Assembly (NCBI RefSeq): GCF_028829235.1
Contig: NZ_JAIWJY010000003.1
Span: 186,001 to 250,000 of the forward strand
DNA length: 64,000 nucleotides
Reading direction: 5' to 3'
Source: Tenacibaculum larymnensis
GTDB lineage: Bacteria > Bacteroidota > Bacteroidia > Flavobacteriales > Flavobacteriaceae
Numbering within the stretch: the stretch's first letter is position 1; every line of letters starts with the position of its first letter. The notes beneath the pieces were generated by a model. The model saw only the letters and a program-made list of their open reading frames with translations, was not told the DNA's origin and made no database searches. Made by a program: the position numbers and the translations under genes. Shown in pieces: positions 2,970-20,381 of the stretch.

Positions 2970-3005
2970 TTGCAACCCAGTTGCATAAAAATTCAGCTAT
3001 ATTTG
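2970..3005 (+). promoter_or_regulatory. Promoter with overlapping dyad TGCAAC-N3-GTTGCA
   Basis: A perfect inverted repeat at 2971-2985 (TGCAAC, 3-base spacer, GTTGCA) is followed, after 12 bases, by TATATTTG at 2998-3005, which matches the Bacteroidetes -7 consensus TAnnTTTG. The dyad begins at a TTG. The same arrangement with the same 12-base distance occurs before the next gene (3382-3417). This is a predicted regulated promoter; the regulator is unknown. Confidence 0.55.
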
Positions 3006-3009
3006 CAAT

Positions 3010-3351
3010 GTGAAATTCTTGGTAGTTATATTATCCTTTTACTTTTTGGCACTTAATGTTGTGCCTTGTAGCGATGCAGAAAAGATTAATGACGATTCCC
3101 AAGTTGTTACGGTAACCGATTTTGAAGGTGACCACGACCAAGACTGCGAATTATGTTCGCCTTTCTGCCAATGTCATTGTTGCCACGTTCACACCATAAA
3201 TTTCGGGCTTGCTGTATTCGAGCCATTACAACCTGCAATTCTACACGAATTTTTCGCCAATTTTGATAACCTCGGCAAAGATATCCCACATTCCATTTTA
3301 CTGCCAACGGTTATAATTCAGTTTCCTAGAAGAGGTTTTTTTGATTTTTAA
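3010..3351 (+). CDS. Small Cys/His-rich exported protein (DUF6660-like)
   Basis: A 113-residue protein with an N-terminal hydrophobic signal-like segment (about residues 1-18) and a dense metal-ligand cluster in the middle: CELCSPFCQCHCCHVH, near residues 46-61. It resembles the uncharacterised DUF6660 family, found next to metal pumps in Flavobacteria. The Cys/His cluster suggests a periplasmic metal-binding role, but no function is known. The start is GTG, preceded by a TAnnTTTG box ending only four bases upstream, so the message may be leaderless. An overlapping ATG two bases upstream is in another frame and stops at once. It is followed by a second small exported protein under a like promoter. 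Confidence 0.72.
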   Translation: MKFLVVILSFYFLALNVVPCSDAEKINDDSQVVTVTDFEGDHDQDCELCSPFCQCHCCHVHTINFGLAVFEPLQPAILHEFFANFDNLGKDIPHSILLPTVIIQFPRRGFFDF

Positions 3352-3381
3352 TAAACATACTCAAGGATTGTCAAAATTACT

Positions 3382-3417
3382 TTGCACAACCTGTGCATCG
3401 ATTAATTTGTATCTTTG
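3382..3417 (+). promoter_or_regulatory. Promoter with overlapping dyad TGCACA-N3-TGTGCA
   Basis: A perfect inverted repeat at 3383-3397 (TGCACA, 3-base spacer, TGTGCA) is followed 12 bases later by TATCTTTG at 3410-3417, a match to TAnnTTTG. Dyad, spacing and the overlapping TTG repeat the layout at 2970-3005, so both promoters probably answer to the same regulator. Confidence 0.55.
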
Positions 3418-3426
3418 TCAAACTTT

Positions 3427-3822
3427 ATGAAAATATTCTTTTCCATATCAATGTCAATTTTATTCTTTTTTCAGGGAATTAGCATTGATATGGACTTTTG
3501 TGGACCAATTAAAGAAATTTCAAGCATTATTACCCATTATCAAGACCATAAAGTTTATGGAGACTCTTTCCTTGAATATGTAGTTGAAGATTACATTGAC
3601 AATGATGCAAAAAATGAAGGGCATCATAATAACCCAGATAAGGAGAATACACCAGTCCATTCCCATCATCAATGTTGTCACCCTTTAGTATTAATTATTG
3701 CGAACAACAATTCGGCTTTAACCAATCGACTAAAGTTTGAAGAGAAAAAACAGTTTAACTTACATAAAGTAAACTTCACTTCCAGATATCTGGAATCGCT
3801 TTTCCAACCCCCTAAAGTATAA
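3427..3822 (+). CDS. Small His/Cys-containing exported protein, unknown function
   Basis: A 131-residue protein starting at ATG 3427. A TTG four codons earlier overlaps the predicted -7 box and is therefore unlikely. Residues 1-20 form a hydrophobic signal-like stretch. The mature part is acidic and holds a His/Cys cluster (HSHHQCCHP) and a C-terminal FQPPKV. Small proteins of this style, ending in a PP motif, are common directly upstream of RND metal pumps in Bacteroidetes, and this gene sits 117 bases before such a pump gene. I do not recognise a named family with certainty. Periplasmic binding of Cu or Zn, or sensing for the pump, would fit the residues seen, but this is inference. Confidence 0.65.
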   Translation: MKIFFSISMSILFFFQGISIDMDFCGPIKEISSIITHYQDHKVYGDSFLEYVVEDYIDNDAKNEGHHNNPDKENTPVHSHHQCCHPLVLIIANNNSALTNRLKFEEKKQFNLHKVNFTSRYLESLFQPPKV

Positions 3823-3939: not shown

Positions 3940-6900
3940 ATGATTAACAAAATCATTTCATTTTCCATTAATAACAAGTTTATTATTGGGCTCTTTATAG
4001 TGGCACTTGTAGGTACGGGCATTTGGTCTATGGCCACTATAAATCTGGGTTCTGTACCCGATATTACCAACAACCAAGTACAGGTTATTACAGTTGCCCC
4101 AAATTTAGGTACTGAAGATATTGAGCAGTTTGTAACCTATCCGGTAGAATTGGCAATGGCAAATCTTCCTGATGTTATCGAACTGCGTTCGGTGTCTCGT
4201 TTTGGGTTGTCTGTAGTTACCATTGTTTTTAAGGACGAGGCAGGCACTTATCTTCCCCGGCAATTGGTGCAAGAGAAATTAACCGAAGTTGCTGGAGAAA
4301 TTCCTGAAGGCTTTGGTACGCCATTTATGGCACCAATAACTACAGGTCTGGGCGAAATTTACCAATACACCCTAAAACTAAAAGAGGGCTACGAAGATAA
4401 ATACGATGCAATGGAGCTTCGTACTATTCAAGATTGGATTGTAAAACGCCAAATGGCATTAGTTCCAGGAGTGGTCGAGGTCAATGCTTTTGGAGGGTAT
4501 GTGAAACAATATGAAGTGGCCATAAATCCTGATAAATTAAAAAGTTTTGGCATTACAATGAATCAGGTTTTTGAAGCCCTGAAAGTGAACAATGCCAATA
4601 CAGGTGGTGCTTATATCGAGAAAAACCACCAAGCAAATTTCATTCGCGGAGAAGGTTTGGCGCGTAGCATTGAAGATTTGGAAAACACCGTTGTAACCAC
4701 ACAAAACGGAAGCCCTGTTTTAGTGCGGGATGTCGCTGAAAAAGTGGGCTATGGGAATCAGGTGCGATATGGTGCGTTTACCCAAGATGGCCACGAATCT
4801 GTTGGTGGACAAATACTGATGCTGAAAGGCGAAAGTCCAAGTAACGTTATAGAAAATGTTGAAAAGCGCATTGTAGAAATCCAAAAATCCTTACCGGAAG
4901 GCGTTTATATTGATGCTTTTTTAAGTCGAAGTGAACTTATTGAGGCAACCACAAGTACCGTTAAAACAAATCTAATAGAAGGTGCCCTTATTGTCATATT
5001 TGTTTTGGTCTTGCTTTTAGGAAGCTTCCGTGGTGGCTTGATAGCAGCGTCGATAATCCCTTTATGCCTATTATTTGCATTTATTTTGATGAAACAATTT
5101 GGCATTTGGGCAAATTTAATGTCCTTGGGTGCGATCGATTTTGGGATTATTGTAGATGGTGCGGTGATTATCGTGGAAGGAGCGGTTTTCCACATTCATC
5201 AACGGATGAAAAAATCCACAACCGCCATTAACCAAGCTGAAATGGATGAAATCGCCTATGACTCTTCAAGTAAAATGATGAATTCTGCCTTCTTCGGTCA
5301 ACTAATTGTTCTTATAGTTTTTACACCTATTCTGTTTTTGACCGGTGTGGAAGGGAAAATGTTTCGACCAATGGCATTTACATTTGGTTTTGCCGTTTTA
5401 GGGGCAATTATTCTTTGCCTTACCTACGTACCAATGATGTCATCATTATTTTTAAAACCTGCTAAAAATCAAAATAGTTGGTTTGCCAAATTTGAAAACA
5501 AGATTGATAGGTTCAGTGATAAAATTATGGGGGTTCTGAATCGTATCTATCTGCCAATATTAAATTTTGCACTTCGCTTTAGGGCTGGTGTGGTTATAGG
5601 AGCGGTTTCATTGCTATTAATTGCAGGATTTGTATTTAGCAATATGGGAGCAGAATTTGTCCCGAAATTTGATGAAGGCGATATTGCCTTTCAAGCCTTG
5701 ATAAAACCAGGGAGCAGTCTTACAGAATCTATTGAGGCTTCAAAAAAACTTCAGAATTTAATCAATGAATTTCCAGAAGTAAAAACGGTAGTTTCAAGGA
5801 TTGGTGTGGCCGAAATACCAACAGACCCAATGCCTATGGATATTGCGGATAGTTATATTATTCTTGAAAAGGACAAGAGTAAATGGACATCCGCAGATAG
5901 TAAAGAAGAACTCATAGAAAAAATACAAGAAAAAATTTCAGTAGTGCCTGGTGTAAACTTTGTGTTTACACAACCTGTTGAACTTCGATTTAATGAATTG
6001 CTGACTGGCGTTCGTGAGGACGTAGCCATCAAATTATATGGAGAAGATTTAAACGTGTTGGCAGATAAGGTTCAGGAAATTGCTGCGGTCATACGGAAAG
6101 TTCCGGGTGCTGCAGACCTTAACGTAGAGGCTACAAGTGGTTTGCCCCAAATGACCGTGGTGTATAACCGCGCAAAAATGGCTCAATACGGAGTAACCGT
6201 TGACAAGCTGAATGATTATGTGAGTGCATCGTTTTCAGGAGAAGCCGCAGGTGTGATTTTTGAGGGCGAAAAACGCTTTGATGTGGTCATTCGTTTGGCG
6301 GAAGACTTTAGGCAAGACATCAACAGCCTTAAGAATTTGTATATCGATTTGCCAAACGGAGCGCAAGTGCCTTTAAAGGAAGTCGCGGACATCAGTTACA
6401 AACCAGGACCAATGCAGATTTCAAGGGACAATACCTCGCGGCGTATTTCGGTTGGTGTCAATGTTCGTGGGCGAGATGTAAAATCGATGGTTGAGGAGAT
6501 TCAGCAAAAACTGGAAACGGAAGTGAAACTGCCACCGGGATATTATGTTACTTACGGAGGGTCATTTGAAAACCTGCAACGTGCGTCAGACCGATTGATG
6601 ATCGTAGTCCCAATCGTTTTAATAACAATATTTGTTCTGCTTTACTTTGCTTTGAATTCATTTTCACAAGCCTTGATGATCTATATGGCGGTACCTTTGG
6701 CAGCCATAGGTGGCGTTTTCGTTTTGTGGATTCGTGGAATGCCTTTCAGTATTTCGGCGGGAGTCGGGTTTATCGTACTCTTCGGAGTTGCCGTATTAAA
6801 CGGCTTGATTCTTATAAACAAATTCAATGAACTAAAAGACAGTGGAATGACAGATATAAAAAAACGTATATACGAAGCTACGCACGAACGTTTACGTCCA

Positions 6901-8355
6901 ATTTTATTGACAGCCATTACAACAATTATGGGCTTTATCCCAATGGCGGTTTCCACCTCTGGTGGTGCCGAAGTACAACGACCATTGGCAACAGTAGTGA
7001 TTGGAGGAATGCTTACGGCAACCTTTCTGACCTTGGTGGTTATTCCTATTCTTTATTACTGGCTCGAATCGAGAAAAGAACGAAACAATAACGATGGAGC
7101 TATAAGCTATGTCAACAAATCAACTAACATTGTAACCGTATTATTGATGGTTGGCGGTTTGATGGCTTCTGGAACTGCTTTTGCCCAAGACACCAATGCA
7201 GATGGAACAATTCCAAAAACCTTGACCGTGGATGAGGCCATCGCTTTGGCAAAACAGAATTATCCTTCTCTTAAAGAAAGTCAAGCCTTTATAGAACGTG
7301 AACAGGCTATGAAAGGCACAAGTTTCGACTTGGGCAGTACGCAAGTTTTTACGGGAAAGGAAGAATATGGCAATAATCTTCCCGGAGTACAGACTACCAT
7401 TGGTGTGCAACAGGGCAACATTGATTTGCTTTCAGGATTTTCAAAATCGAAGTTTTACAAAGAGCGTATTGCCTTGGGAGAAAAGTTTTATGTGGCCAAT
7501 GAACAACAGTTGGTGCGCAATGTGATGCAAGCCTATGACCAAATTAATTATTACAAGGCACAGTTGCGTTTTGCAGAACAGCTGGATAGTGTTTATATTA
7601 ATTTTAGGGAGGCTGCTGAATTGCGTTATGAAACAGGGGAAACCGGGAAATTGGAATTTATTGCAGCATCTTCGGAATATCAGCAAATACAAGTATTAAA
7701 ACAACAAGCCTATGATGATATTGAAATTGCCAAACGTGCTTTAAAACAGTATTTGGGAACGGATGAAAGCATTGAAACGGTGAACGATTTTTACGAGCCA
7801 TTGGATTTTATGGCAAATTTGGATTCTACCTCGGTAGCAAACAACCCAATATTGCAATATGCGTTGCAGAACGCCGAAGTAAGTAAAGCAAATGTGGGCG
7901 TTGAAAAATCCCAATTCCTACCGAAATTTAATTTATCGTTCGGACGGCAAGTTGTGGATGATGTTTCAGGCTTTAATACCTATCAGGCAGGTATCAGTAT
8001 TCCGTTGTGGTTTTTTCCGCAGAAATCAAGGGTAAAGGCAGCCAAGGCAGATGCAATGGTCGCAGAAAATCAATATTTGGAGCAAAAGGCAACCACCGAA
8101 AGTAGGGTGTCGCAATTGTTCAAATCCCTTGAAAAAACGCGGAAAATATTGCAGTATTATGAAGAAGGCGCATTGCTTTTGGCGGAAGAACAAATAACCA
8201 CCGCAGAATTGGCATCCAAGGAAGGCGAAATAGATTATGTCAACTATATAACCATCCTTAACAGTGCCATCAGGATAAAGCAAACACATTTGGAATACAT
8301 CAATCAATACAACCAACAATCTATTGAGGTACAATATCAGTTGGGTAATCTATAA
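3940..8355 (+). CDS. CzcA/CusA-type heavy-metal RND pump fused to TolC-like outer-membrane factor
   Basis: A 1471-residue fusion. Residues 1 to about 1045 are an HME-family RND pump with 12 predicted membrane segments and two large periplasmic loops. Its fourth-helix motif DFGIIVDGAVIIVE carries the two Asp and one Glu typical of CzcA-like pumps for divalent Zn/Co/Cd; CusA lacks the first Asp. Residues from about 1083 to the end are an outer-membrane efflux protein (CzcC/TolC-like) rich in coiled-coil. Between them, residues 1068-1082 form a hydrophobic core ending GTAFA before QD, as in a type I signal peptide. Such fusions are known in Bacteroidetes; the internal signal could let signal peptidase release the TolC part in the periplasm. 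The adaptor gene follows after 17 bases. Confidence 0.92.
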   Translation: MINKIISFSINNKFIIGLFIVALVGTGIWSMATINLGSVPDITNNQVQVITVAPNLGTEDIEQFVTYPVELAMANLPDVIELRSVSRFGLSVVTIVFKDEAGTYLPRQLVQEKLTEVAGEIPEGFGTPFMAPITTGLGEIYQYTLKLKEGYEDKYDAMELRTIQDWIVKRQMALVPGVVEVNAFGGYVKQYEVAINPDKLKSFGITMNQVFEALKVNNANTGGAYIEKNHQANFIRGEGLARSIEDLENTVVTTQNGSPVLVRDVAEKVGYGNQVRYGAFTQDGHESVGGQILMLKGESPSNVIENVEKRIVEIQKSLPEGVYIDAFLSRSELIEATTSTVKTNLIEGALIVIFVLVLLLGSFRGGLIAASIIPLCLLFAFILMKQFGIWANLMSLGAIDFGIIVDGAVIIVEGAVFHIHQRMKKSTTAINQAEMDEIAYDSSSKMMNSAFFGQLIVLIVFTPILFLTGVEGKMFRPMAFTFGFAVLGAIILCLTYVPMMSSLFLKPAKNQNSWFAKFENKIDRFSDKIMGVLNRIYLPILNFALRFRAGVVIGAVSLLLIAGFVFSNMGAEFVPKFDEGDIAFQALIKPGSSLTESIEASKKLQNLINEFPEVKTVVSRIGVAEIPTDPMPMDIADSYIILEKDKSKWTSADSKEELIEKIQEKISVVPGVNFVFTQPVELRFNELLTGVREDVAIKLYGEDLNVLADKVQEIAAVIRKVPGAADLNVEATSGLPQMTVVYNRAKMAQYGVTVDKLNDYVSASFSGEAAGVIFEGEKRFDVVIRLAEDFRQDINSLKNLYIDLPNGAQVPLKEVADISYKPGPMQISRDNTSRRISVGVNVRGRDVKSMVEEIQQKLETEVKLPPGYYVTYGGSFENLQRASDRLMIVVPIVLITIFVLLYFALNSFSQALMIYMAVPLAAIGGVFVLWIRGMPFSISAGVGFIVLFGVAVLNGLILINKFNELKDSGMTDIKKRIYEATHERLRPILLTAITTIMGFIPMAVSTSGGAEVQRPLATVVIGGMLTATFLTLVVIPILYYWLESRKERNNNDGAISYVNKSTNIVTVLLMVGGLMASGTAFAQDTNADGTIPKTLTVDEAIALAKQNYPSLKESQAFIEREQAMKGTSFDLGSTQVFTGKEEYGNNLPGVQTTIGVQQGNIDLLSGFSKSKFYKERIALGEKFYVANEQQLVRNVMQAYDQINYYKAQLRFAEQLDSVYINFREAAELRYETGETGKLEFIAASSEYQQIQVLKQQAYDDIEIAKRALKQYLGTDESIETVNDFYEPLDFMANLDSTSVANNPILQYALQNAEVSKANVGVEKSQFLPKFNLSFGRQVVDDVSGFNTYQAGISIPLWFFPQKSRVKAAKADAMVAENQYLEQKATTESRVSQLFKSLEKTRKILQYYEEGALLLAEEQITTAELASKEGEIDYVNYITILNSAIRIKQTHLEYINQYNQQSIEVQYQLGNL

Positions 8356-8372: not shown

Positions 8373-9626
8373 ATGAAGAATATACTATTAGTAAGTACCG
8401 TATTATTTACACTTATGTTTATGAGTTGTAACGATGGCCAAAAATCTGAACTTGGGCATAACGAAGCTGAAGGCGTATCAAAAACCGAAGCAGGTGGCGA
8501 AGATGCACACGGCGAAGAAGGTCACGACGAAGAAGAAGGAGGCCATAGTGAGGAAGAAGGCGTTGTAGAACTTACAAAGCAACAGGCTGAAACCATCGGT
8601 TTGGAAATGAAACCTCTGGAGGAACGGAATTTAGGGAACAACATTAAGGTAACGGGTACGCTGGAACTTTACCCACAGGACAAGGCGAACATCAGTCCGT
8701 TTGTTGGTGGAAATGTGAGTTCCATAAAAGTTGTACCTGGAGATAACGTAAGCAAAGGACAGGTGCTTGCGTATATTGAGCATCCAGATATCATTGCAAT
8801 TCAACAGGATTATCAGGAAAAAAATGATGAACTGGTCTTTTTGAAACAGGATTTTGAGCGTAAGCAGACTCTTTATGATAAAGGTGTTTCTTCTGGCAAG
8901 GAATTTCAGATGGCGCAGTCAAAATTTCGTTCCACAACATCCAGCGTCAATGGTTTGCGTTCCCAATTGAGACTGTTGGGCATCAACCCGGACAAGGTGG
9001 CTGAAGGCCAAATATATTCCGCAGTTCCCATTATCACGCCCATAAGTGGCTATGTGGATGAAGTAATGATTAGTCTGGGCGATTATGTGGCACAACAATC
9101 CAAAATGTTCTCAATAAGCGATAATTCAAAGATTTATGTCAACTTCAAAGTATATGAGAAGGACATAAAGCAAATCAAGAAAGGGCAACAGATATATTTT
9201 TCAACGGCTTCTCGTCCGGACGAACTGCTTAAGGCAACCGTTAGGTCTGTTGGCAAAACCTTCAATACTGACCCAAAAGCATTGGAAGTTTTGGCAGATA
9301 TTGAGAACAAGGATAAAAACCTGTTGCCGGGTATGTACGTGGAAGGACGCATAGTGCAGGGCGAGAAAAAAGGTTTTGCAGTACCGGAAGCTGCCATTAT
9401 AAAAGAAGGCGAGCAATCCTTTATTTTTATTTTGGATGAAGATGAAGCAATGGAAGCGAACAAAATGAAATTTAAAATGGTACCCGTAACGGTTGGACTA
9501 ACTGATTTGGGCTTTGTTGAAGTCAATCTTCCTGCCGAAGTTTCAACGGATGCCAAAGTGGTCATCAAAGGAGCTTATAACCTGTCTTCTGAAATGGTTA
9601 AAGGCGAACTGGAACACGACCATTAA
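8373..9626 (+). CDS. CzcB/CusB-type periplasmic adaptor lipoprotein
   Basis: A 417-residue membrane-fusion protein that links the RND pump to its outer-membrane channel. The N-terminus is a lipoprotein signal with lipobox FMSC (Cys19). It is followed by a His/Glu-rich segment (about residues 25-65, with AHGEEGHDEE and EEGGHSEEE) that could bind divalent metal. After this come the biotinyl-lipoyl half motifs around an alpha-helical hairpin, a beta-barrel, and a membrane-proximal domain. The length is normal for the family. The gene follows the fused pump gene closely and completes the tripartite exporter together with the TolC part encoded in the fusion. The His-rich tail fits Zn/Co/Cd better than copper, in line with the pump's CzcA-like motif. 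Confidence 0.92.
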   Translation: MKNILLVSTVLFTLMFMSCNDGQKSELGHNEAEGVSKTEAGGEDAHGEEGHDEEEGGHSEEEGVVELTKQQAETIGLEMKPLEERNLGNNIKVTGTLELYPQDKANISPFVGGNVSSIKVVPGDNVSKGQVLAYIEHPDIIAIQQDYQEKNDELVFLKQDFERKQTLYDKGVSSGKEFQMAQSKFRSTTSSVNGLRSQLRLLGINPDKVAEGQIYSAVPIITPISGYVDEVMISLGDYVAQQSKMFSISDNSKIYVNFKVYEKDIKQIKKGQQIYFSTASRPDELLKATVRSVGKTFNTDPKALEVLADIENKDKNLLPGMYVEGRIVQGEKKGFAVPEAAIIKEGEQSFIFILDEDEAMEANKMKFKMVPVTVGLTDLGFVEVNLPAEVSTDAKVVIKGAYNLSSEMVKGELEHDH

Positions 9627-9741: not shown

Positions 9742-10080
9742 ATGAAGGAAATAAAAGCATTTATAAAACCGAACCGAATCCAAAGAGTCATTGAAGCACT
9801 ATCTGATAATGGGTTCAAAAGTATGACCCTTTCACAAGCTGAAGGCACTGGTGCATTCAAATCAAAAGGTGCAAGACCGTCGCTGGATTTTCACGTTACA
9901 GACAGTCCAGTGGTTAAGCTGGAACTGGTCTGCCAAAATGAGGAAGCCCAAGCAGCCATTGAAACAATTTTAAAAAATGGTAAAACTGAAGAACCAGGAG
10001 ATGGTATCATATACATAGCCAATATAGAGAATGCCTTTCAGATTAAAACGGGAGATTCCTTAAAACGGTACGACCTATAA
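9742..10080 (+). CDS. PII-like signalling protein linked to the metal pump
   Basis: A 112-residue protein of the PII/GlnB superfamily. It has the opening strand MKEIKAFIKPNRIQRVIEAL, a T-loop region with GTGAFKSKG, and the signature-like GDGIIYIANIENAFQIKTGD near the C-terminus. The T-loop differs from GlnB around the uridylylated Tyr, so control by GlnD is unlikely. A divergent PII group (called PII-NG) is known to neighbour metal RND pump genes, and this gene fits that description. Binding of a nucleotide or metal ion as a signal for pump activity is an inference. It follows the adaptor gene after 115 bases with no gene between, and a Fur-like regulator comes next. Confidence 0.8.
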   Translation: MKEIKAFIKPNRIQRVIEALSDNGFKSMTLSQAEGTGAFKSKGARPSLDFHVTDSPVVKLELVCQNEEAQAAIETILKNGKTEEPGDGIIYIANIENAFQIKTGDSLKRYDL

Positions 10081-10095
10081 AACATTTTAGTGCAA

Positions 10096-10518
10096 ATGGA
10101 AAAAATAGTCCAACTTCTGGAAAGCAAAGGAATACGACCTACGGCAATGCGCCTAATGACCTACAAACGTTTGGCAGAATTAGAGGTGGCCATCAGTCTT
10201 GGCGATTTGGAAAAGGATTTTAAGGTCAGTGAAAGAAGCACCCTATTTAGGACTATGAAAGCGTTTGAGGAAAAAGGTATTGTACATCAAATTGAGGATG
10301 GGACAGGTGTTATAAAATACGCCCTTTGCGAAGAAAATTGTGAGTGCGAGGTTGGCAACGACCTTCATTTACACTTTCATTGCAACAATTGTAATGAAAC
10401 TGTCTGTTTAACAGAGCATAAAATCCCTCATATCAACTTACCTGATGGCTACATTACCGAGGACATTAACTTGGTGGTAAAGGGTATTTGCGAAAAATGC
10501 AGCGACAATCTGGATTAA
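10096..10518 (+). CDS. Fur-family transcriptional regulator (copy 1)
   Basis: A 140-residue DNA-binding metalloregulator. The N-terminal winged helix contains GIRPTAMRLMTYKRLAELE and the recognition region SERSTLFRTMKAFEEKG. The C-terminal part has HLHFHCNNCNETVCL and GICEKC, giving two CxxC pairs that probably hold a structural zinc, as in Fur/Zur proteins. Start chosen at ATG 10096; a GTG two codons earlier is possible. The position after the pump genes and before a P1B-4 ATPase suggests control of one or both groups by zinc or a related ion. It resembles a second Fur-like protein encoded at 13501, and both carry the HLHFHC signature. Which operators they bind is not visible. Confidence 0.88.
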   Translation: MEKIVQLLESKGIRPTAMRLMTYKRLAELEVAISLGDLEKDFKVSERSTLFRTMKAFEEKGIVHQIEDGTGVIKYALCEENCECEVGNDLHLHFHCNNCNETVCLTEHKIPHINLPDGYITEDINLVVKGICEKCSDNLD

Positions 10519-10562: not shown

Positions 10563-10925
10563 ATGATAACAATCTATAAAAAAGAGGCTACTGTATATAT
10601 GGTGGCAGAGAATAAGCTGGATGCCAAGGATTATGAAAACTTGATACCGGTCTTAATAGAACATATAACTGCATATCAGGAAGTTTCTTGGTACATCGAA
10701 ATGCATAATTTTGAAGGCTGGACGGCAAACGCATATTGGAAGGGCATTGAGTTAAATCTTCCGAATGAAACGCATTTAAAGCGTGTTGCTTTAGTGGGTA
10801 GCGTTAAATGGCAGGAGCAATTTACCGAGGCATTGCTTCCTTTTTCAGAAGCTCATATAAAATTTTATAAGCCAGAAGAAAAAGACGATGCCAAAGAATG
10901 GATAAAAAAAAATAGTAAAAAATGA
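10563..10925 (+). CDS. SpoIIAA-like (STAS) protein, copy 1
   Basis: A 120-residue soluble protein resembling the SpoIIAA-like family (STAS/SEC14 fold). It has the characteristic central WYIEMHNFEGW, then RVALVGSVKWQEQF, and FYKPEEKDDAKEWIKK at the C-terminus. Family members have structures resembling anti-sigma-factor antagonists, but their role is unknown. Its stop codon overlaps the start of the following P1B-4 ATPase gene (ATGA), so the two are translationally coupled and probably act together. A second, clearly related copy lies at 15547 in the same island. No phosphorylatable Ser like that of SpoIIAA is obvious at the usual site, which argues against a classic partner-switching role. Confidence 0.8.
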   Translation: MITIYKKEATVYMVAENKLDAKDYENLIPVLIEHITAYQEVSWYIEMHNFEGWTANAYWKGIELNLPNETHLKRVALVGSVKWQEQFTEALLPFSEAHIKFYKPEEKDDAKEWIKKNSKK

Positions 10926-13450
10926 AAAAAATACAACTAAAAATTCCAGTTATCCTTCCGCAAGTTCCAAACGAAAAAGATACTTGTGTTGAGCGGCTTA
11001 TAAAAGAATTACAGGCTAAAGAGGGCATCGAAAAAGTACACGTTGCCGATACAAAGGAAGATGACACACCACAGCTCTGTTTTCATTATGACCCCGATAT
11101 CATTTCTATAGACCGCATTCAATCTCTCGCAGAACAGACGGGTGCCGAGATTACCGAAAAATACGGGCATTTGCTCATAGAGGTTAAAGGAATCAGACAT
11201 ACAAGACAGGCACGTTCCATAGAGAAAAGTCTTTTGGCAATCAATGGGGTTTTGGAGGCTTCCGTTTCGGCCTCTGGAATGGTGCGCCTTGAGTTTGATA
11301 AAAAGCAAACAAATTTTGATGAAATAAGTAAACAGATTGAAAAGGAAGACCTTCAGGTTCAGCGGAGTTCTTCAAACGAAAATAATTACACCGAAGCATC
11401 CAAAAAAAAACAGGAACGTTCAAAGAAGGAAGATACTAAAGAGCAAACTTCCACAGAGGGCCACGAGCACAAGGAGGGCGAGACCCACGAGGAAGGAGAA
11501 GAGCACGCCCATGGTGGGGTTTTCGGTAAAAATACGGAGCTTATTTTTTCCATTATCTGTGGGGCACTTCTCGGGATAGGTTTCGGGCTTTCTTATGTGG
11601 AATCCATCCCAGATTGGGTCAGTCTTACTTTGTACATTGGCGCGTACTTTTTCGGTGGTTTCTTTACGGCCAAGGAAGCGGTTCAAACTGTGGCCAAGGG
11701 TGGTTTTGAAATTGATTTTTTAATGCTGGTCGCTGCCATTGGTGCCGCCATTCTGGGAGAATGGGCAGAAGGTGCACTGTTGTTGTTTTTATTTAGCCTT
11801 GGGCACGCCTTGGAACATTACGCAATGAACAAAGCAAGAAAAAGCATTGCTGCGCTTGCAGACCTTGCACCAAAAACAGCATTGCTTAAAAAAGATGGCA
11901 AGACCGAAGAAGTTGGAATTGAGCAATTGAGTATTGGCGATATTATAGTGGTCAAGCCCAATAGTAAAATATCCGCAGATGGCGTCGTGGTCAACGGAAA
12001 AAGCAGTGTAAACCAGGCCCCTATTACTGGGGAAAGTGTACCCGTGGATAAACTTCCCGTGGAAGATACAGGCAGGGACTATTCGGCAGACGATGATATT
12101 AAGGATGAAAATCGGGTATTTGCCGGAACTATCAACGGTAATAACACGCTGGAAATAAAGGTAATCAAAGAAGCCAAAGACTCTACCCTGTCCCGACTGG
12201 TCAAATTGGTCAACGAGGCACAGACCCAGAAGTCCCCCACGCAACTGCTGACCGATAAGTTCGAAAAATACTTTGTGCCATCCGTACTGATACTGGTTGG
12301 TATCCTACTCTTTGCCTTTCTGGTCATTGACGAACCGTTTAGTGCCAGCTTTTATCGTGCAATGGCGGTATTGGTAGCTGCAAGTCCCTGTGCACTGGCC
12401 ATTTCAACACCAAGTGCCGTATTGAGCGGTGTGGCAAGGGCAGCACGTGGCGGCGTGCTCATCAAAGGTGGGCGACCACTTGAGGATTTAGGGGTCATAA
12501 CCGCTTTGGCTTTTGATAAAACAGGCACGCTTACCGAAGGCAAGCCCAAACTTACCGAAGTAGTACCATTGGGGGATATTGAAGAAAATGAACTGTTAAA
12601 GATAGCCGTTGCCGTTGAAAACTTGAGCGACCACCCTTTGGCCAAAGCCGTCGTAAGGGATGGGAAAGAGCGTCTGAAAGGTACTGATATTATCGATGCG
12701 TCAGATTTGGAAGCAGTTCTCGGAAAAGGTATCAAAGCTTCTTTGGGCAAGGATAAAATCTATATTGGAAACCTTGACTTGTACGAAGACCTCGATGAAG
12801 CAAAACCATCCGAAGATATATCGAATAAAGTAAAAGAACTTGAAGGTGGTGGAAATACTACGATGCTCATAAGAAGGAACAAAGAATATATAGGTATCAT
12901 CGCCCTGATGGACACCCCACGGGAAGCGGCCAAGGAAACACTGAAAAAATTAAAGGAAATCGGTATCAAGCGGATGATAATGCTAACCGGGGATAATCAA
13001 AAGGTTGCCGATGCCGTTGCTAAAGAAATTGGGTTGACCGATGCCTGGGGAAGCCTGTTGCCAGAGGAAAAGGTAGATGCCATTAAAAAATTAAAAGAAC
13101 AGGAATCCAAAGTCGCAATGGTAGGCGACGGTGTGAACGATGCCCCTGCAATGGCAAACAGCACAGTAGGTATCGCAATGGGTGCAGCGGGCAGTGATGT
13201 GGCCTTGGAAACTGCAGACATTGCCCTAATGGCCGATAAATTGGAAACCCTGCCCTTTGCCATAGGCTTGAGCAGGAAGGCAAAGGCAATTATCAAGCAA
13301 AACCTTTGGGTAAGCCTCGGTATTGTGGCATTGCTTATCCCATCGACCATTATGGGTTGGGCCAATATCGGTATTGCAGTGGTCATCCACGAAGGCTCAA
13401 CATTACTTGTGGTTTTTAATGCGTTAAGGCTTTTGGCTTATAAGAAATAG
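10922..13450 (+). CDS. P1B-4-type metal-exporting ATPase with degenerate HMA domains and His-rich linker
   Basis: An 842-residue pump. Residues 1-150 look like two HMA-like folds without a CxxC motif, so they should not bind metal in the usual way. They are followed by a charged linker with His/Glu repeats (EGHEHKEGE, EEHAHGG; about residues 175-200). Catalytic motifs are TGESVP, DKTGTLTEG, SDHPLAKA and GDGVND. The metal-site motif is SPC rather than CPC (AASPCALAIS), and the last helix has HEGST; both are marks of the P1B-4 class, which exports Co, Zn, Cd or Fe. It is translationally coupled to the STAS protein upstream. Automatic annotation would probably call it ZntA/CadA; the SPC/HEGST pair argues for P1B-4. 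Confidence 0.9.
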   Translation: MKKIQLKIPVILPQVPNEKDTCVERLIKELQAKEGIEKVHVADTKEDDTPQLCFHYDPDIISIDRIQSLAEQTGAEITEKYGHLLIEVKGIRHTRQARSIEKSLLAINGVLEASVSASGMVRLEFDKKQTNFDEISKQIEKEDLQVQRSSSNENNYTEASKKKQERSKKEDTKEQTSTEGHEHKEGETHEEGEEHAHGGVFGKNTELIFSIICGALLGIGFGLSYVESIPDWVSLTLYIGAYFFGGFFTAKEAVQTVAKGGFEIDFLMLVAAIGAAILGEWAEGALLLFLFSLGHALEHYAMNKARKSIAALADLAPKTALLKKDGKTEEVGIEQLSIGDIIVVKPNSKISADGVVVNGKSSVNQAPITGESVPVDKLPVEDTGRDYSADDDIKDENRVFAGTINGNNTLEIKVIKEAKDSTLSRLVKLVNEAQTQKSPTQLLTDKFEKYFVPSVLILVGILLFAFLVIDEPFSASFYRAMAVLVAASPCALAISTPSAVLSGVARAARGGVLIKGGRPLEDLGVITALAFDKTGTLTEGKPKLTEVVPLGDIEENELLKIAVAVENLSDHPLAKAVVRDGKERLKGTDIIDASDLEAVLGKGIKASLGKDKIYIGNLDLYEDLDEAKPSEDISNKVKELEGGGNTTMLIRRNKEYIGIIALMDTPREAAKETLKKLKEIGIKRMIMLTGDNQKVADAVAKEIGLTDAWGSLLPEEKVDAIKKLKEQESKVAMVGDGVNDAPAMANSTVGIAMGAAGSDVALETADIALMADKLETLPFAIGLSRKAKAIIKQNLWVSLGIVALLIPSTIMGWANIGIAVVIHEGSTLLVVFNALRLLAYKK

Positions 13451-13500: not shown

Positions 13501-13938
13501 ATGACTAAAACGGAAAAGATACTATTAAATCACGGTATTCGACCTACTCAAATGAGGTTGAAGATATACAAGTTCCTGAAAAGGAAGCAAAGTGCCGTGT
13601 CCTTTTCCGATTTGAAAAAGGCTTTTGTTCAAAAGAGCGAAACCAATAAAACAGCAAACAGAACGACATTTTATCGAAATCTCAAGATTTTCGAGGATAA
13701 AGGGCTGATTCATCAGATTAATGATGGGGTCGGAGTGGCAAAATATGCTATTTCTGATGAAAACGCCAAAGATAAATACGGTATAGATTTACATCTGCAT
13801 TTTCATTGTACCGATTGCAGAAGAACAATCTGTTTACCGAATAAGATATCGAAAGAAAGCTTGCCAGACGATTATGAAGTGAGAAATGTGAACCTGATAT
13901 TAAAGGGAATATGTGAAAAATGCAGGCAAAAATATTAG
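13501..13938 (+). CDS. Fur-family transcriptional regulator (copy 2)
   Basis: A 145-residue regulator with a winged helix at the N-terminus (GIRPTQMRLKIYKFLKRK, then NRTTFYRNLKIFEDKGL) and a zinc-binding C-terminus with HLHFHCTDCRRTICL and GICEKC. It is similar in layout to the product of 10096-10518, and both are shorter in the dimerisation domain than classic Fur. The gene comes 50 bases after the P1B-4 ATPase gene and 81 bases before an amino-acid-permease-like gene. The presence of two paralogues in one island suggests that two metals or two thresholds are sensed. No binding site can be assigned. Confidence 0.87.
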   Translation: MTKTEKILLNHGIRPTQMRLKIYKFLKRKQSAVSFSDLKKAFVQKSETNKTANRTTFYRNLKIFEDKGLIHQINDGVGVAKYAISDENAKDKYGIDLHLHFHCTDCRRTICLPNKISKESLPDDYEVRNVNLILKGICEKCRQKY

Positions 13939-16190: not shown

Positions 16191-17087
16191 ATGTTTATGC
16201 AAAGAAACCCAAATGCTATATCGAAAAAAGGATTGAAAACTACGCTTGTAGGTATAATAATCAGCGCATTTTTGGCTATAATAAAAGGTCTTGGAGGTGT
16301 TTTTGGCCATTCTTATGCATTGATTGCCGATGCCATTGAATCTGCTTCAGATGTATTAACTTCTGCAATGCTTTGGGCAGGTTTAAAATGGTCTTCTAAA
16401 CCACCAGACGAAAACCATCCTTACGGTCACGGAAAGATTGAGGCACTGGTAGCGATAGGTATTGCGATAGCTTTGACGATTGCAGGAGGGATTATAGTGA
16501 GAGATAGCGTCATACACATTCTTGAGCCACATAAAAGTCCTGCACCCTATACATTGATTATTTTGGTTGTAGTGGTTGCTACGAAGGAACTCTTATACCG
16601 ATACGTTCTCAAAACAGGAGATGAAATAAATAGTTCCGCAGTAAAGGCAGATGCCTTTCATCACAGGAGCGATGCCATAACTTCAATCGCTGCTTTTATT
16701 GGTATATCCATTGCTCTAATTGGTGGAAAAGGTTTTGAGATTGCGGATGATTTTGCAGCCCTTATTGCTGCTGTATTTATTTTTTATAATGCGTATAAAA
16801 TTGGAAGGTCTTCCATAGGCGAATTATTGGACGAAGCCATAGAGCCAGAACTTTGCGAAAAAGTTACTGCGGTGGCTGAAGCATTTCCAGATGTTGTAAG
16901 AATAGAACGTTGCTATTCTCGAAAAATGGGGACAGCATTTCATATTGATATGCATATGTGGGTAGATGGCAATAAGACAGTAACGGAAGGTCACGCCATT
17001 GCTCACGAGGTTAAAAATAACTTATTTAAAAACTTTTCACAATTGATTGATGTCCATATCCACATAGAACCTGCCGAAGATAAATAA
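16191..17087 (+). CDS. Cation diffusion facilitator (CDF) metal exporter
   Basis: A 298-residue inner-membrane antiporter of the CDF family, which exports divalent metals in exchange for protons. Six membrane segments are followed by a cytoplasmic metal-binding domain. The second helix has DAIESASD, with Glu where Zn carriers often have His or Asp. The fifth has DAFHHRSD, giving the HxxxD half of the transport site. HPYGHGKIEAL follows the second helix, as usual. The Glu in the first half-site may shift selectivity, for example toward Fe, Co or Mn, but the metal cannot be fixed from sequence. Start taken at ATG 16191, eight bases after the previous gene. Confidence 0.9.
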   Translation: MFMQRNPNAISKKGLKTTLVGIIISAFLAIIKGLGGVFGHSYALIADAIESASDVLTSAMLWAGLKWSSKPPDENHPYGHGKIEALVAIGIAIALTIAGGIIVRDSVIHILEPHKSPAPYTLIILVVVVATKELLYRYVLKTGDEINSSAVKADAFHHRSDAITSIAAFIGISIALIGGKGFEIADDFAALIAAVFIFYNAYKIGRSSIGELLDEAIEPELCEKVTAVAEAFPDVVRIERCYSRKMGTAFHIDMHMWVDGNKTVTEGHAIAHEVKNNLFKNFSQLIDVHIHIEPAEDK

Positions 17088-17138: not shown

Positions 17139-19097
17139 ATGAAAAAAAAGAAACTGAATTTAAGAGATTTGAATAAAACTTCATCAGATACTCACAAGCG
17201 CAATGATGGCCACAACCATAGCAGTCCAGAAAGCATAGGGAAATTTAAAATTTATGTACCAGCAATTTTCAGCTTTGTAATGCTGATTATTGGTATTGCG
17301 ATGGATTATTTTGACGTAGCATTTTTTAAAGATTGGATACGTATCGTCTGGTATGCAGTCGCATACCTTCCAGTAGGTTTTCCTGTAATAAAGGAAGGTT
17401 GGAAAAGCATCAAAAATGGCGATTTTTTTACCGAGTTTTTATTGATGTCCATCGCAACCATAGGAGCATTCGCCATTGGAGAATATCCCGAAGGTGTGGC
17501 AGTAATGCTATTTTATGCTGTGGGCGAATTGTTCCAGAACGCAGCTGTCAATAGAGCAAAAAGAAATATTAAAGCCTTACTCGATGTACGACCAAATGAA
17601 GCCTTGGTGTATCGCAATAACGATTATATATCCGTAAATCCAGAAACGGTTGAAATTGGCGAGAAAGTGCAAGTTCGTGTAGGCGAAAAAATTCCGCTCG
17701 ATGGTGTATTGCTATCGGAAAAAGGCTCGTTCAACACGGCAGCATTAACAGGCGAGAGCAAACCTGATACCATCACAAAAGGCGAAAAAGTATTTGCAGG
17801 AAGCATCAATTTGGATGGCGTTATTGAAATTGAAACCACCAAGGAATATAAGGACAGTTCCATTGCTCGAATCCTCGATATGGTTCAGAATGCCACGGCA
17901 CGTAAATCAAAAACCGAATTGTTCATTCGGAAATTTGCAAGAATCTATACGCCCATTGTGGTGTTCTTGGCGATTGGATTAACATTTTTGCCCTACTTTT
18001 TTGTGGATGATTATGTTTTTAGCGATTGGTTATACAGAGCATTGATATTCTTGGTTATTTCCTGTCCCTGTGCCTTGGTTATCTCTATTCCCTTGGGTTA
18101 TTTCGGTGGATTGGGAGCAGCTTCAAAAAATGGAATTCTCTTTAAGGGCGCATCCTTTTTGGACGAAATGACAAGGATTTCCACAGTGGTAATGGACAAA
18201 ACCGGAACTGTGACCAAAGGTGTTTTCAAAATCAAGGAAATAAAAGCCATTGGTTGGGAAGAACCCGAATTTATGAAATATCTAATGGCGATGGAAGAAC
18301 AATCCACCCATCCCATTGCCAAGGCCATAATGGAATATAAAGACGATGGCGAAGATTTTCAGGCAACAGAAGTAACAGAAGTCGCAGGAAAAGGATTAAA
18401 GGGAACGGTCAATGGCAAAACTGTTTTAGTTGGGAATAAGCCCTTGATGAATTCAAATAATATTGAAGTTCCATCTGAAACCGACAACATTGTAGAATCC
18501 ATTGTGATGGTTTCCATTGAAAACAAATTCGCTGGCTATGTCATCATTGCAGACGAATTGAAAGAAGATGCCCACGATGCCATCAAACAAATTCGTGAAT
18601 CTGGAATTTCCAAAATCATAATGCTTTCCGGCGACAAGGATTCCATTACGCAACAAGTCGCCAAAGAAATGGGTATACATACCGCAAAAGGTGGCTTACT
18701 TCCAGAGGATAAATTAGAAGAAGTTGAAAAACTGATGTCTGAAACCGACAACAAAGTGGCGTTTATTGGCGATGGAATCAACGATGCACCTGTCTTGGCA
18801 GCAAGTGATGTTGGTATTGCAATGGGGGGCTTAGGTAGTGATGTCGCCATAGAAACCGCTGATGTCATTATTCAAACGGACCAACCGAGCAAAATTGCAA
18901 GAGCTATTAAAATTGGTCGTTCCACTCGCAGTATCGTTTGGCAAAACATTGGACTGGCATTTGGCGTGAAAGCTGTGGTTTTAATTTTAGGTGCAGGTGG
19001 TCTGGCAACAATGTGGGAAGCGGTTTTTGCAGATGTGGGTGTGGCACTTTTGGCTATTTTCAATGCGGTACGTTTACAGAAAATGACGTGGAAGTGA
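17139..19097 (+). CDS. zntA: P1B-2-type Zn/Cd-exporting ATPase
   Basis: A 652-residue pump. It lacks an N-terminal HMA domain; instead it has a short tail with HKRNDGHNHS that could bind metal. Motifs seen are TGESKP, SCPCALVISIP in the sixth helix, DKTGTVTKG, STHPIAKA and GDGIND. The last helix reads FADVGVALLAIFNAVRL; its Asp in a D-x-G setting matches the P1B-2 (ZntA/CadA) metal site. Zn(II), Cd(II) and Pb(II) are the usual substrates. It is the last gene of the plus-strand metal cluster and is followed by the oppositely oriented integrase. With the copper P1B-1 and the P1B-4 pumps, the island encodes three P1B classes. Confidence 0.92.
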   Translation: MKKKKLNLRDLNKTSSDTHKRNDGHNHSSPESIGKFKIYVPAIFSFVMLIIGIAMDYFDVAFFKDWIRIVWYAVAYLPVGFPVIKEGWKSIKNGDFFTEFLLMSIATIGAFAIGEYPEGVAVMLFYAVGELFQNAAVNRAKRNIKALLDVRPNEALVYRNNDYISVNPETVEIGEKVQVRVGEKIPLDGVLLSEKGSFNTAALTGESKPDTITKGEKVFAGSINLDGVIEIETTKEYKDSSIARILDMVQNATARKSKTELFIRKFARIYTPIVVFLAIGLTFLPYFFVDDYVFSDWLYRALIFLVISCPCALVISIPLGYFGGLGAASKNGILFKGASFLDEMTRISTVVMDKTGTVTKGVFKIKEIKAIGWEEPEFMKYLMAMEEQSTHPIAKAIMEYKDDGEDFQATEVTEVAGKGLKGTVNGKTVLVGNKPLMNSNNIEVPSETDNIVESIVMVSIENKFAGYVIIADELKEDAHDAIKQIRESGISKIIMLSGDKDSITQQVAKEMGIHTAKGGLLPEDKLEEVEKLMSETDNKVAFIGDGINDAPVLAASDVGIAMGGLGSDVAIETADVIIQTDQPSKIARAIKIGRSTRSIVWQNIGLAFGVKAVVLILGAGGLATMWEAVFADVGVALLAIFNAVRLQKMTWK

Positions 19098-19166: not shown

Positions 19167-20381
19167 TTAAAAATTCACAACGCTGTCCAAAGCATCATCA
19201 GCTTCTTTATGAATAAAATTAGCTTGATAATTAAGAGTTGTCTTTAAATCACTGTGACGGTATAGTTTTTGAAGCATCAATGGATGTATAGAATCACCAG
19301 CGATATTACCAAAAGTATGCCTTGCAATGTGCATAGTAACCTTCTTATCTATTTTTGCCTTTTTCGCAATGGATTTTAGGTTGTCATTGAATTTTTTGGT
19401 GGCTGTCTTTCTTTTGTTATAGATGTCTTTTGCATCATCAAGATTCGCTTTTTTTAATTCTGGGAAGACAAAATCCGTTGCATATCTCTTATCTTCTCTG
19501 TAATAATCCAAAATCTTTAAAACCTTATCGGGAATTTTCAAGGATAGTAACTTTGAGTTTTTGTTCATTCTATAATGCAATCTGTCGTCATATATGTCTG
19601 ACCACTTTATCCATAGCACATCAGTAACTCGCATTCCTGCAAAATTGAAGCTGAAAAGCCAAACGTTTCTTGTGTGCATTTCGGCTAACGTTAAATTATC
19701 AAGAGCCTCTATAGCTCTTACTTCAATAATACTCAACCCAATTTTATTTGTTTCCGGAAATTTAATTTTAATCTTATCACCACCAAAAGGGTACAATTCC
19801 CTACTAACAATTTTAAGCTTTATTGCCCTATTGAACAATAAGCGGATAAATACCAGTATATTCATTATTGACGTTTCGGCTAGAGAATGTTCAACTTTTA
19901 GATATATCATCAATTTCTTGAGGAAACGCTCGTCGATTTCCTGAAAAGAAAGTTGTTTGGATTTATTGAATTTTAAGATATAACTTACCAAAGCACTATC
20001 TGTGGATAGGCGGTTTAATTTTTCAGCAGCTTTCAATTCATCGAGATGCTCTTGGGCAAGTTCAAAAAAGGTAGAAGTATTACCCAATGCGTATAGCTCT
20101 TTTTTGATTTGGTTTGCAGAAGCATCTTTGTGTTCTGATTGCAAATCAATAAGTGCTTTATTGGCATCAGAAAGTTCTTGTGACAACAACTTGTTTAAAC
20201 TGTCCGCGTTTTGATTTGATTTTTTTACTCGAATGTTTTTTTCGTCCCAATCCTCTAAGTCGATATAATGACCGACATATTGATATGTTGAGCGACGATT
20301 TTTTGTGATACGAATAGCTAGTGGATATAGACCTTTACTGTTCGGTTTTTTGCGTAGTACTATTTTTGCATTTGATGACAT
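19167..20381 (-). CDS. Tyrosine recombinase (integrase) of the island
   Basis: A 404-residue site-specific recombinase. The N-terminus (residues 1-50) is an arm-type DNA-binding domain, followed by a SAM-like core-binding domain (about 105-200) and the catalytic domain. The catalytic residues are visible: Arg251 (AGMRVTDVLW), His351 and Arg354 (HIARHTF), His376 (YRHSDLKTT) and the nucleophile Tyr385 (TLNYQ). The full length and complete set of residues suggest an active enzyme. The start codon lies about 235 bases from the tRNA-Leu fragment, the usual place for an integrase near its att site. The family is typical of Bacteroidetes integrative elements. Confidence 0.93.
   Translation of the reverse strand: MSSNAKIVLRKKPNSKGLYPLAIRITKNRRSTYQYVGHYIDLEDWDEKNIRVKKSNQNADSLNKLLSQELSDANKALIDLQSEHKDASANQIKKELYALGNTSTFFELAQEHLDELKAAEKLNRLSTDSALVSYILKFNKSKQLSFQEIDERFLKKLMIYLKVEHSLAETSIMNILVFIRLLFNRAIKLKIVSRELYPFGGDKIKIKFPETNKIGLSIIEVRAIEALDNLTLAEMHTRNVWLFSFNFAGMRVTDVLWIKWSDIYDDRLHYRMNKNSKLLSLKIPDKVLKILDYYREDKRYATDFVFPELKKANLDDAKDIYNKRKTATKKFNDNLKSIAKKAKIDKKVTMHIARHTFGNIAGDSIHPLMLQKLYRHSDLKTTLNYQANFIHKEADDALDSVVNF

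Follow-up and report, generated by a model that had tools for sequence, protein, structure and literature searches.

We have analyzed a stretch of 64,000 nucleotides from the genome of Tenacibaculum larymnensis, a member of the Flavobacteriaceae (hereafter the window, 34% G+C), the left 20 kb of which are a metal-resistance island. From the left edge the island carries genes for a Cu-type P-type ATPase, an HMA protein, an M90-type peptidase, a DUF6660 protein and a His/Cys-rich exported protein, followed by a CzcA-type RND pump with a TolC-like part, a CzcB protein, a P-II-like protein, a Fur-family protein and a SpoIIAA-like protein. The right part holds a second ATPase, a second Fur-family gene, a permease, a second SpoIIAA-like gene, a CDF gene, a third ATPase and an integrase-like gene (19167-20381, labeled by eye). 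The DUF6660 gene (3010..3351, plus strand) codes for a Cys/His-rich exported protein of 113 aa (PF20365, E 2.5e-53) and has a GTG start at the predicted +1; no literature on this family was found among open-access papers. The next gene (3428..3822, plus strand), whose start was taken as the ATG at 3428 and not the TTG at 3415, is the first of the pump operon and codes for an exported His/Cys protein of 131 aa that resembles NCBIfam HYC_CC_PP, with a score (18.4 bits) below the cut-off of 28 bits.

The pump itself (3940..8355, plus strand, 1471 aa) belongs to the CzcA/CusA family (TIGR00914, residues 1-1052) and is fused to a TolC-like outer-membrane part (TIGR01844, residues 1154-1409, below the cut-off of that model); comparable lengths of this in-frame fusion (1444-1477 aa) recur among related loci. 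Behind it lie a CzcB-like RND periplasmic adaptor (8373..9626, plus strand, TIGR01730), a P-II-like gene (9742-10080, PF00543) that belongs to the metal-efflux operon and separates the pump genes from the Fur gene, and the Fur-family regulator (10090..10518, plus strand, PF01475). Further along the plus strand are a heavy-metal P-type ATPase with an SPC motif (10922..13450, assigned by motif and profile match), the second Fur-family gene (13501..13938, PF01475), 50% identical to the first, the CDF cation efflux protein (16191..17087, PF01545) and a heavy-metal P-type ATPase with a CPC motif (17139..19097). The RND pump contains DFGIIVDG, a DFG-x3-DG motif, which we take to mark divalent-metal pumps rather than Cu(I) pumps, and we assume that the SPC and CPC motifs of the ATPases favor a divalent metal as well. 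Because of these motifs, a divalent metal (Zn, Cd, Co or Ni) seems likelier than Cu as the effector of the island.

Two dyads of 15 bp, which we call operator 1 and operator 2, precede the DUF6660 gene and the 131-aa gene on the plus strand. Operator 1, TGCAACCCAGTTGCA (TGCAAC-CCA-GTTGCA), occupies 2971-2985 and operator 2, TGCACAACCTGTGCA (TGCACA-ACC-TGTGCA), 3383-3397. Each is separated by 12 nt from a TAnnTTTG box on the same strand, TATATTTG at 2998-3005 in promoter 1 and TATCTTTG at 3410-3417 in promoter 2. A first-pass annotation made from the letters of the window had described both dyads, their length and this distance, and all of it was confirmed. The box of promoter 1 matches the -7 consensus TANNTTTG reported for Bacteroidota (PMC6847099; PMC9723704). 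Set against the Bacteroidota sigma-A promoters as they are described (TTTG / TANNTTTG), the two promoters share the -7 box and have a dyad in place of the TTG. The same annotation had both dyads begin at a TTG. This was right as to the letters, the T ahead of each dyad giving TTG at 2970-2972 and 3382-3384, but that TTG sits 25 nt from TAnnTTTG and therefore outside the usual position of the -33 element. Among 55 collected dyad promoters the TTG was found at N25 in 48, because it belongs to the dyad, and at N17-21 in just four, so that a canonical -33 TTG within the dyad was rejected; in the other 51 the dyad fills that position. The missing -33 element was also dropped as proof of an activator, the -33 motif of F. 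johnsoniae being described as weak (PMC6847099).

At 29 of 30 DUF6660 loci (L016-L045; 2998-3012 in the window) the start codon comes 4 nt past the -7 box, and 5 nt in the remaining one; it is GTG in 27 and ATG in three. These distances were read by eye; a regular expression took TATTTTTA first at 7 loci (10 nt) and missed 3. Transcription in F. johnsoniae starts 4-5 nt past the box (PMC6847099). The sequences thus have TAnnTTTG a few nt before the predicted transcription start, as in Bacteroidota sigma-A promoters, and the start codon falls at or near the predicted +1. The DUF6660 mRNA is therefore predicted to be leaderless, and transcription from promoter 1 would begin at 3010, at the GTG itself, which would put operator 1 at -39 to -25. 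For promoter 2 the predicted start is at about 3422. Leaderless messages make up 5.5% of the mapped mRNAs of F. psychrophilum (PMC9723704).

TGCA-N7-TGCA without the box says little, with three matches in the window against 1.25 expected. It was rejected as a genome-wide marker, having 31 places in the genome of T. larymnensis as against 24 for the reversed control, and hence only the pattern that contains the box is informative. In 400 dinucleotide shuffles the combination of dyad, 12-nt spacing and TAnnTTTG gave three matches in total and never two together. The pattern found in the window is beyond chance, and chance was ruled out for its two sites.

Dyad promoters across the Flavobacteriaceae

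The relatives of the window organism were searched for the same combination, as the first-pass annotation had proposed. Of 299 Flavobacteriaceae genomes, 155 contain TGCA-N7-TGCA-N(11-13)-TAnnTTTG, as against 11 of 299 with the reversed pattern. That annotation had made its idea depend on the dyads being conserved before homologous genes, and they are. DUF6660 is found in 111 of the 299 genomes, and TGCA-N7-TGCA or a one-base variant lies 12-13 nt ahead of the box at 26 of the 30 DUF6660 loci retrieved, while a homologue of the 131-aa protein stands downstream of the site in 23 of 40 loci (L076-L115) chosen from the site list. In a profile that did not require the dyad, 17 mutually dissimilar DUF6660 promoters aligned by the box alone had low information upstream of the dyad and high information across the dyad and at the box.

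TGCACA-N3-TGTGCA, the word of operator 2, is found in identical form and at the same 12 nt from the box ahead of homologues of the 131-aa and pump genes, including some that lie away from DUF6660. TGCAAC..ATTGCA is found ahead of the 131-aa gene too (L094, L108-L110), and a hybrid, TGCACA..ATTGCA, lies before DUF6660 in L115 and before the 131-aa gene in L095 and L111. Since both types and their hybrids occur at orthologous promoters, the two arm types are interchangeable and a single system probably reads both, which supports the shared regulator suggested at the outset. Other genes led by a site code for TonB receptors (L096-L100), P-type ATPases (L102, L103), CDF proteins (L104, L107) and Fur-type proteins (L101, L106, L112); homologues of the CPC ATPase of the island are behind the operator in L102, L103 and L112. 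Overall, the targets are CzcA/RND, P-type ATPase, CDF, TonB-receptor and DUF6660 genes, that is, metal exporters and their neighbors. The Fur-type gene of L101 and L106 is a divergent one; ahead of it stands the dyad TGCAATTGAGTTGCA or TGCAACTAAGTTGCA, which suggests that this gene may be self-controlled through a related box.

We also scored sites with a PWM trained on 46 pattern-selected words. As the training sites had been selected by pattern, the scores on the training loci are circular, and the fairer tests are 80 named loci, which share species with the first set, and the class-level loci described below. A score of 15 bits was reached by four null matches per 1.08 Mb. The operator 2 type TGCACA-ACC-TGTGCA was the commonest among the PWM sites of the named loci (37 of 151). 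Two groups of these matches were rejected as operators, namely 19 on the minus strand, with no convincing gene behind them at the 7 loci inspected, and 30 to TGCACTTTCATTGCA, which by their offsets are codons of HLHFHC in Fur genes. In L207-L235 these codons, at +274 to +280, spell a coding look-alike of the operator. The site of L240 has its first box match at 4 nt, and the L082 site of the same species also has a box at 12 nt.

Chance or codon coincidence is a practically negligible explanation for the sites as a whole. It could appeal to the near-chance frequency of the bare TGCA-N7-TGCA in the window and to the TGCACTTTCATTGCA codons, but it is contradicted by the excess over the reversed pattern in the family, by the shuffles and by the results at the named and class-level loci. 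Judged from these comparisons of sequence, the two dyads are conserved operators.

Fur-family proteins and their linkage to the sites

Four Fur-family genes are present in the genome of T. larymnensis, namely one of PerR/Fur-like type on contig C34, the two of the island and one on contig C11. Directly behind the last of these, a third metal-cluster Fur gene (L013, C11:1690-3892), come TGCAATCGAGTTGCA-N12-TACATTTG and a gene for a TonB receptor, which makes a further cassette of regulator and operator outside the window. The protein encoded at 10090-10518 has a Fur domain (PF01475, 30.5 bits for a curated cut-off of 23.1), and its AlphaFold2 model (mean pLDDT 87) has the Fur fold, a winged helix plus a dimerization domain, with PerR, Fur and Zur as the best Foldseek matches (E down to 9e-09). 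By sequence, its second-best match in the PDB (E 0.0016) was entry 3eyy, which we take to be Nur. Across 31 aligned sequences C98, C101, C134, C137, H93 and H95 are invariant and H97 nearly so. The protein thus has the four cysteines (CxxC ... CxxC) and the His-rich strand of the family, presumably a structural Cys4 metal site (C98/C101/C134/C137) and the metal positions of the sensor strand (H93/H95/H97). A CxxxCxC-like motif before the sensor strand (C80, C84 and C86 of the island protein), possibly an extra set of metal ligands, occurs in 79 of 88 sequences of its clade. None of 36 sequences related to the second island Fur has it, and that Fur (13501-13938) is itself without the motif.

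Relatives of the 10090-10518 protein with a best match of E <= 5.2e-45 and at least 54% identity, hereafter the Fur clade, were found in 120 of the 299 Flavobacteriaceae genomes. The site pattern occurs in 112 of the 120, compared with 43 of the 179 genomes that lack the clade (odds ratio 44, p 1e-35, on per-genome counts that ignore kinship). Among the eight exceptions, five have a PWM match (15-25 bits) no further than about 125 nt behind the Fur gene and two have one-base variants before DUF6660; the eighth, G202, in which the contig starts within DUF6660, was left out of the examination. Proximity gave the same picture. In genomes with the clade, 84 of the 115 sites among those listed lie less than 10 kb from the Fur gene, where about 0.7% would be expected, and 83 of the 84 are on its strand. 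The other 31 lie away from the clade gene, some beside other Fur-type genes and others chance-like. Conversely, of the 85 Fur genes from genomes that have listed sites, 80 lie no more than 10 kb from one. A closer scan of five Fur genes that lacked a listed site found one at four of them, L174 having none. At 79 of the 80 named loci, which come from species of Aequorivita, Gelidibacter, Winogradskyella, Bizionia, Gillisia and others, a same-strand site precedes the Fur gene, and the exception has just 743 bp of upstream sequence. Many of these islands are near-identical, with Fur 95-100% identical across genera, and as recent transfers they do not count as independent origins; besides, the co-occurrence may partly reflect co-inheritance, since the Fur gene often lies within the operon itself. 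The site pattern tracks and neighbors the Fur clade of 10090-10518, which favors the early guess of a metal sensor encoded in the island. Many clusters (L170, L175, L262-L276) have in addition a second operator, of the TGCACTTCCATTGCA type, which lies immediately or a short distance downstream of the Fur gene and has no clear TAnnTTTG box; it is missing in the window.

The DUF6660 promoters follow the clade too. Among the genomes that have DUF6660, the pattern is present in 79 of 82 with the Fur clade versus 9 of 29 without it (p 2e-12, again from per-genome counts with kinship ignored), and among the retrieved loci the dyad is found in 25 of 25 from genomes with the clade versus one of five from genomes without it. 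Where the clade is absent most DUF6660 promoters retain the box a few nt before the start, and a score of at least 15 bits was reached by one of 24 (L195). DUF6660 genes therefore persist under promoters that do not always need the Fur clade, a point against the 10090-10518 protein as the regulator. Two loci from genomes without the clade, L187 and L196, have apparently decayed operators ahead of an intact box before DUF6660, one with altered outer bases and the other apparently shortened. The DUF6660 promoter of L031/L155, also without the clade, has a different dyad of 17 bp, AATGTTATTATAACATT, where the TGCA dyad would be; it resembles an enterobacterial Zur box.

At the level of the class, Fur relatives (E <= 1e-30) were found in 30 of 295 genomes. 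The strict pattern occurs in 17 of these 30 as against 10 of the 265 others (p 4e-13, per-genome counts, kinship ignored), and the reversed control in none. Leaving out the genome of T. larymnensis, 16 of 20 sites in the Fur-bearing genomes lie at most 10 kb from the Fur gene, each of the 16 on the same strand as the gene and 12 of them within 50 nt. When no spacing was imposed, 14 of 19 class-level loci had the dyad at most 10 nt from where the Fur gene ends, with the box at 12-13 nt in 11 of the 14; L290, where the dyad is present at the edge of the scanned stretch, is outside this count. The genes next after the dyad vary and code for P-type ATPases, CDF proteins, TonB receptors, DUF6660, an OprB porin, DUF3703 and weak DUF matches.

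This arrangement bears on the idea that a regulator of some other family binds the dyads and that Fur genes merely share operons with them. Co-inheritance of operons is common in islands, but the dyad stays within 10 nt of the Fur stop codon despite the differing next gene, it follows the presence of the Fur clade among DUF6660 genomes, and its half-site and spacing match a published Fur-family box (PMC3919588); we find this idea highly improbable. A reading mainly by another Fur-family protein, that of 13501 or C11, is unlikely, though it has more in its favor. Both could read the same sites, the recognition-helix pattern R-[ST]-[ST]-x-[FY]-R being common to the 10090, 13501 and C11 types; in the genome of T. 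larymnensis a site with its box lies just behind the C11 Fur gene and ahead of a TonB receptor, and in L101 and L106 the divergent Fur type is behind a similar site. Against it, the 10090 clade alone is found in 112 of the 155 site-bearing genomes and inside the operons, and relatives of 13501 are in fewer genomes, among the matches listed.

Proposed mode of action and relation to known systems

We consider it likely that both dyads are operators for a dimeric Fur-family metalloregulator encoded at 10090-10518, which would control the pump genes. This protein is put forward as the reader of both operators for its co-occurrence, its proximity and its Fur fold. Its gene lies in the same island, downstream of the pump genes and about 7 kb from the operators. 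The best operator form is TTTGCAAC-N3-GTTGCA within TGCA-N7-TGCA, and a Fur dimer would sit on it at about -39 to -25, centered near -32 and at a fixed 12-13 nt from the -7 box. The metal to which it responds would be divalent (Zn, Cd, Co or Ni). Some observations fit less well: TonB receptors as targets would suit the control of uptake better than that of efflux, L174 has a Fur gene without a site, and 31 of the 115 listed sites are not near a clade gene.

As to the sign of this control, and given that Fur is the regulator, we put activation at slightly better than an even chance, with the remainder mainly on an apo-repressor released by metal. Metal-bound Fur would turn efflux on from a class-II-like position; we prefer this because the targets are exporters and because the spacing to the -7 box hardly varies before unrelated genes. 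The same Fur acting as a repressor is a possible but more doubtful reading, in which apo-Fur (or holo-Fur for another metal) would cover the -33 region until metal releases it and the pump is induced. A repressor has no need of the near-constant 12-13 nt, seen before unrelated genes at all 82 box-bearing sites of the named loci. Most Fur-family proteins bind DNA in the metal-bound state, and repression in that state would close efflux under metal excess. Repression would nevertheless agree with a dyad that overlies the -33 region, and the genomes without the Fur clade, which keep the gene and the box, and the apparently decayed operators of L187 and L196 would be easier to understand if the regulator repressed. 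There is also precedent, since the Zur of Corynebacterium glutamicum, while its sensor sites are unfilled, keeps efflux genes repressed by binding over the -35 (PMC6103462) and the Nur box overlaps the sodF promoter (PMC3919588).

The proposed Fur-family system can be set beside several described ones. The kind of operator, a Fur-family one, is known, because the half-site and spacing of operator 1 equal those of the box tTGCaa-N5-ttGCAA of Nur, the nickel-responsive Fur-family regulator of Streptomyces coelicolor (PMC3919588). Operator 1 fits the Nur box except for the last outer base; operator 2 (TGCACA) keeps TGCA..TGCA and departs at the next, fifth, base. The targets of Nur are SOD and nickel genes, nickel serving as corepressor, whereas the system of the window targets metal exporters, and RND, P-type ATPase, CDF, TonB-receptor and DUF6660 genes take the place of nickel and SOD targets. 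Zur as activator of zitB in S. coelicolor is likewise a Fur-family protein beside a metal-exporter promoter; however, as given in PMC5472717 its box, taaTGaNAANNNTTNtCANta, lies 8 nt upstream of the -35 hexamer, while the window dyad covers the -33 region and has another sequence. The Zur of C. glutamicum likewise controls efflux over the -35 region, but from a 10-1-10 direct repeat (PMC6103462), the window dyads being 6-3-6 inverted repeats. The 6-3-6 TGCA-N7-TGCA also differs from Zur-type operators (7-1-7 or related), as far as the Zur motifs presented in PMC6103462 and PMC5472717 are concerned, and among the annotated first genes behind the sites there was no ABC or ZIP zinc-uptake gene. 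The targets, the position in the promoter and the host lineage thus differ from those of Nur and Zur, and in open-access titles and abstracts we found no earlier description of the operator for Fur-family control of metal efflux in Flavobacteria/Bacteroidetes.

Zinc surplus is sensed in most bacteria by regulators other than Zur (PMC5472717). We tentatively propose, at somewhat less than an even chance, that bacteria of this class use a distinct branch of the Fur family, with CxxxCxC, as a sensor of metal excess that would activate exporters through a Nur-type box from a fixed class-II-like position replacing the -33 element. Regulator and operator would travel together as a self-contained cassette in mobile islands of metal resistance. 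For exporters, the genomes suggest regulation by a Fur-family protein throughout a bacterial class whose metal regulation is little described in the open-access literature. From them an operator, a regulator and a regulon (RND, ATPase, CDF, TonB receptor and DUF6660) can be predicted, and the motif is usable to annotate metal-resistance islands in Flavobacteriia and their relatives.
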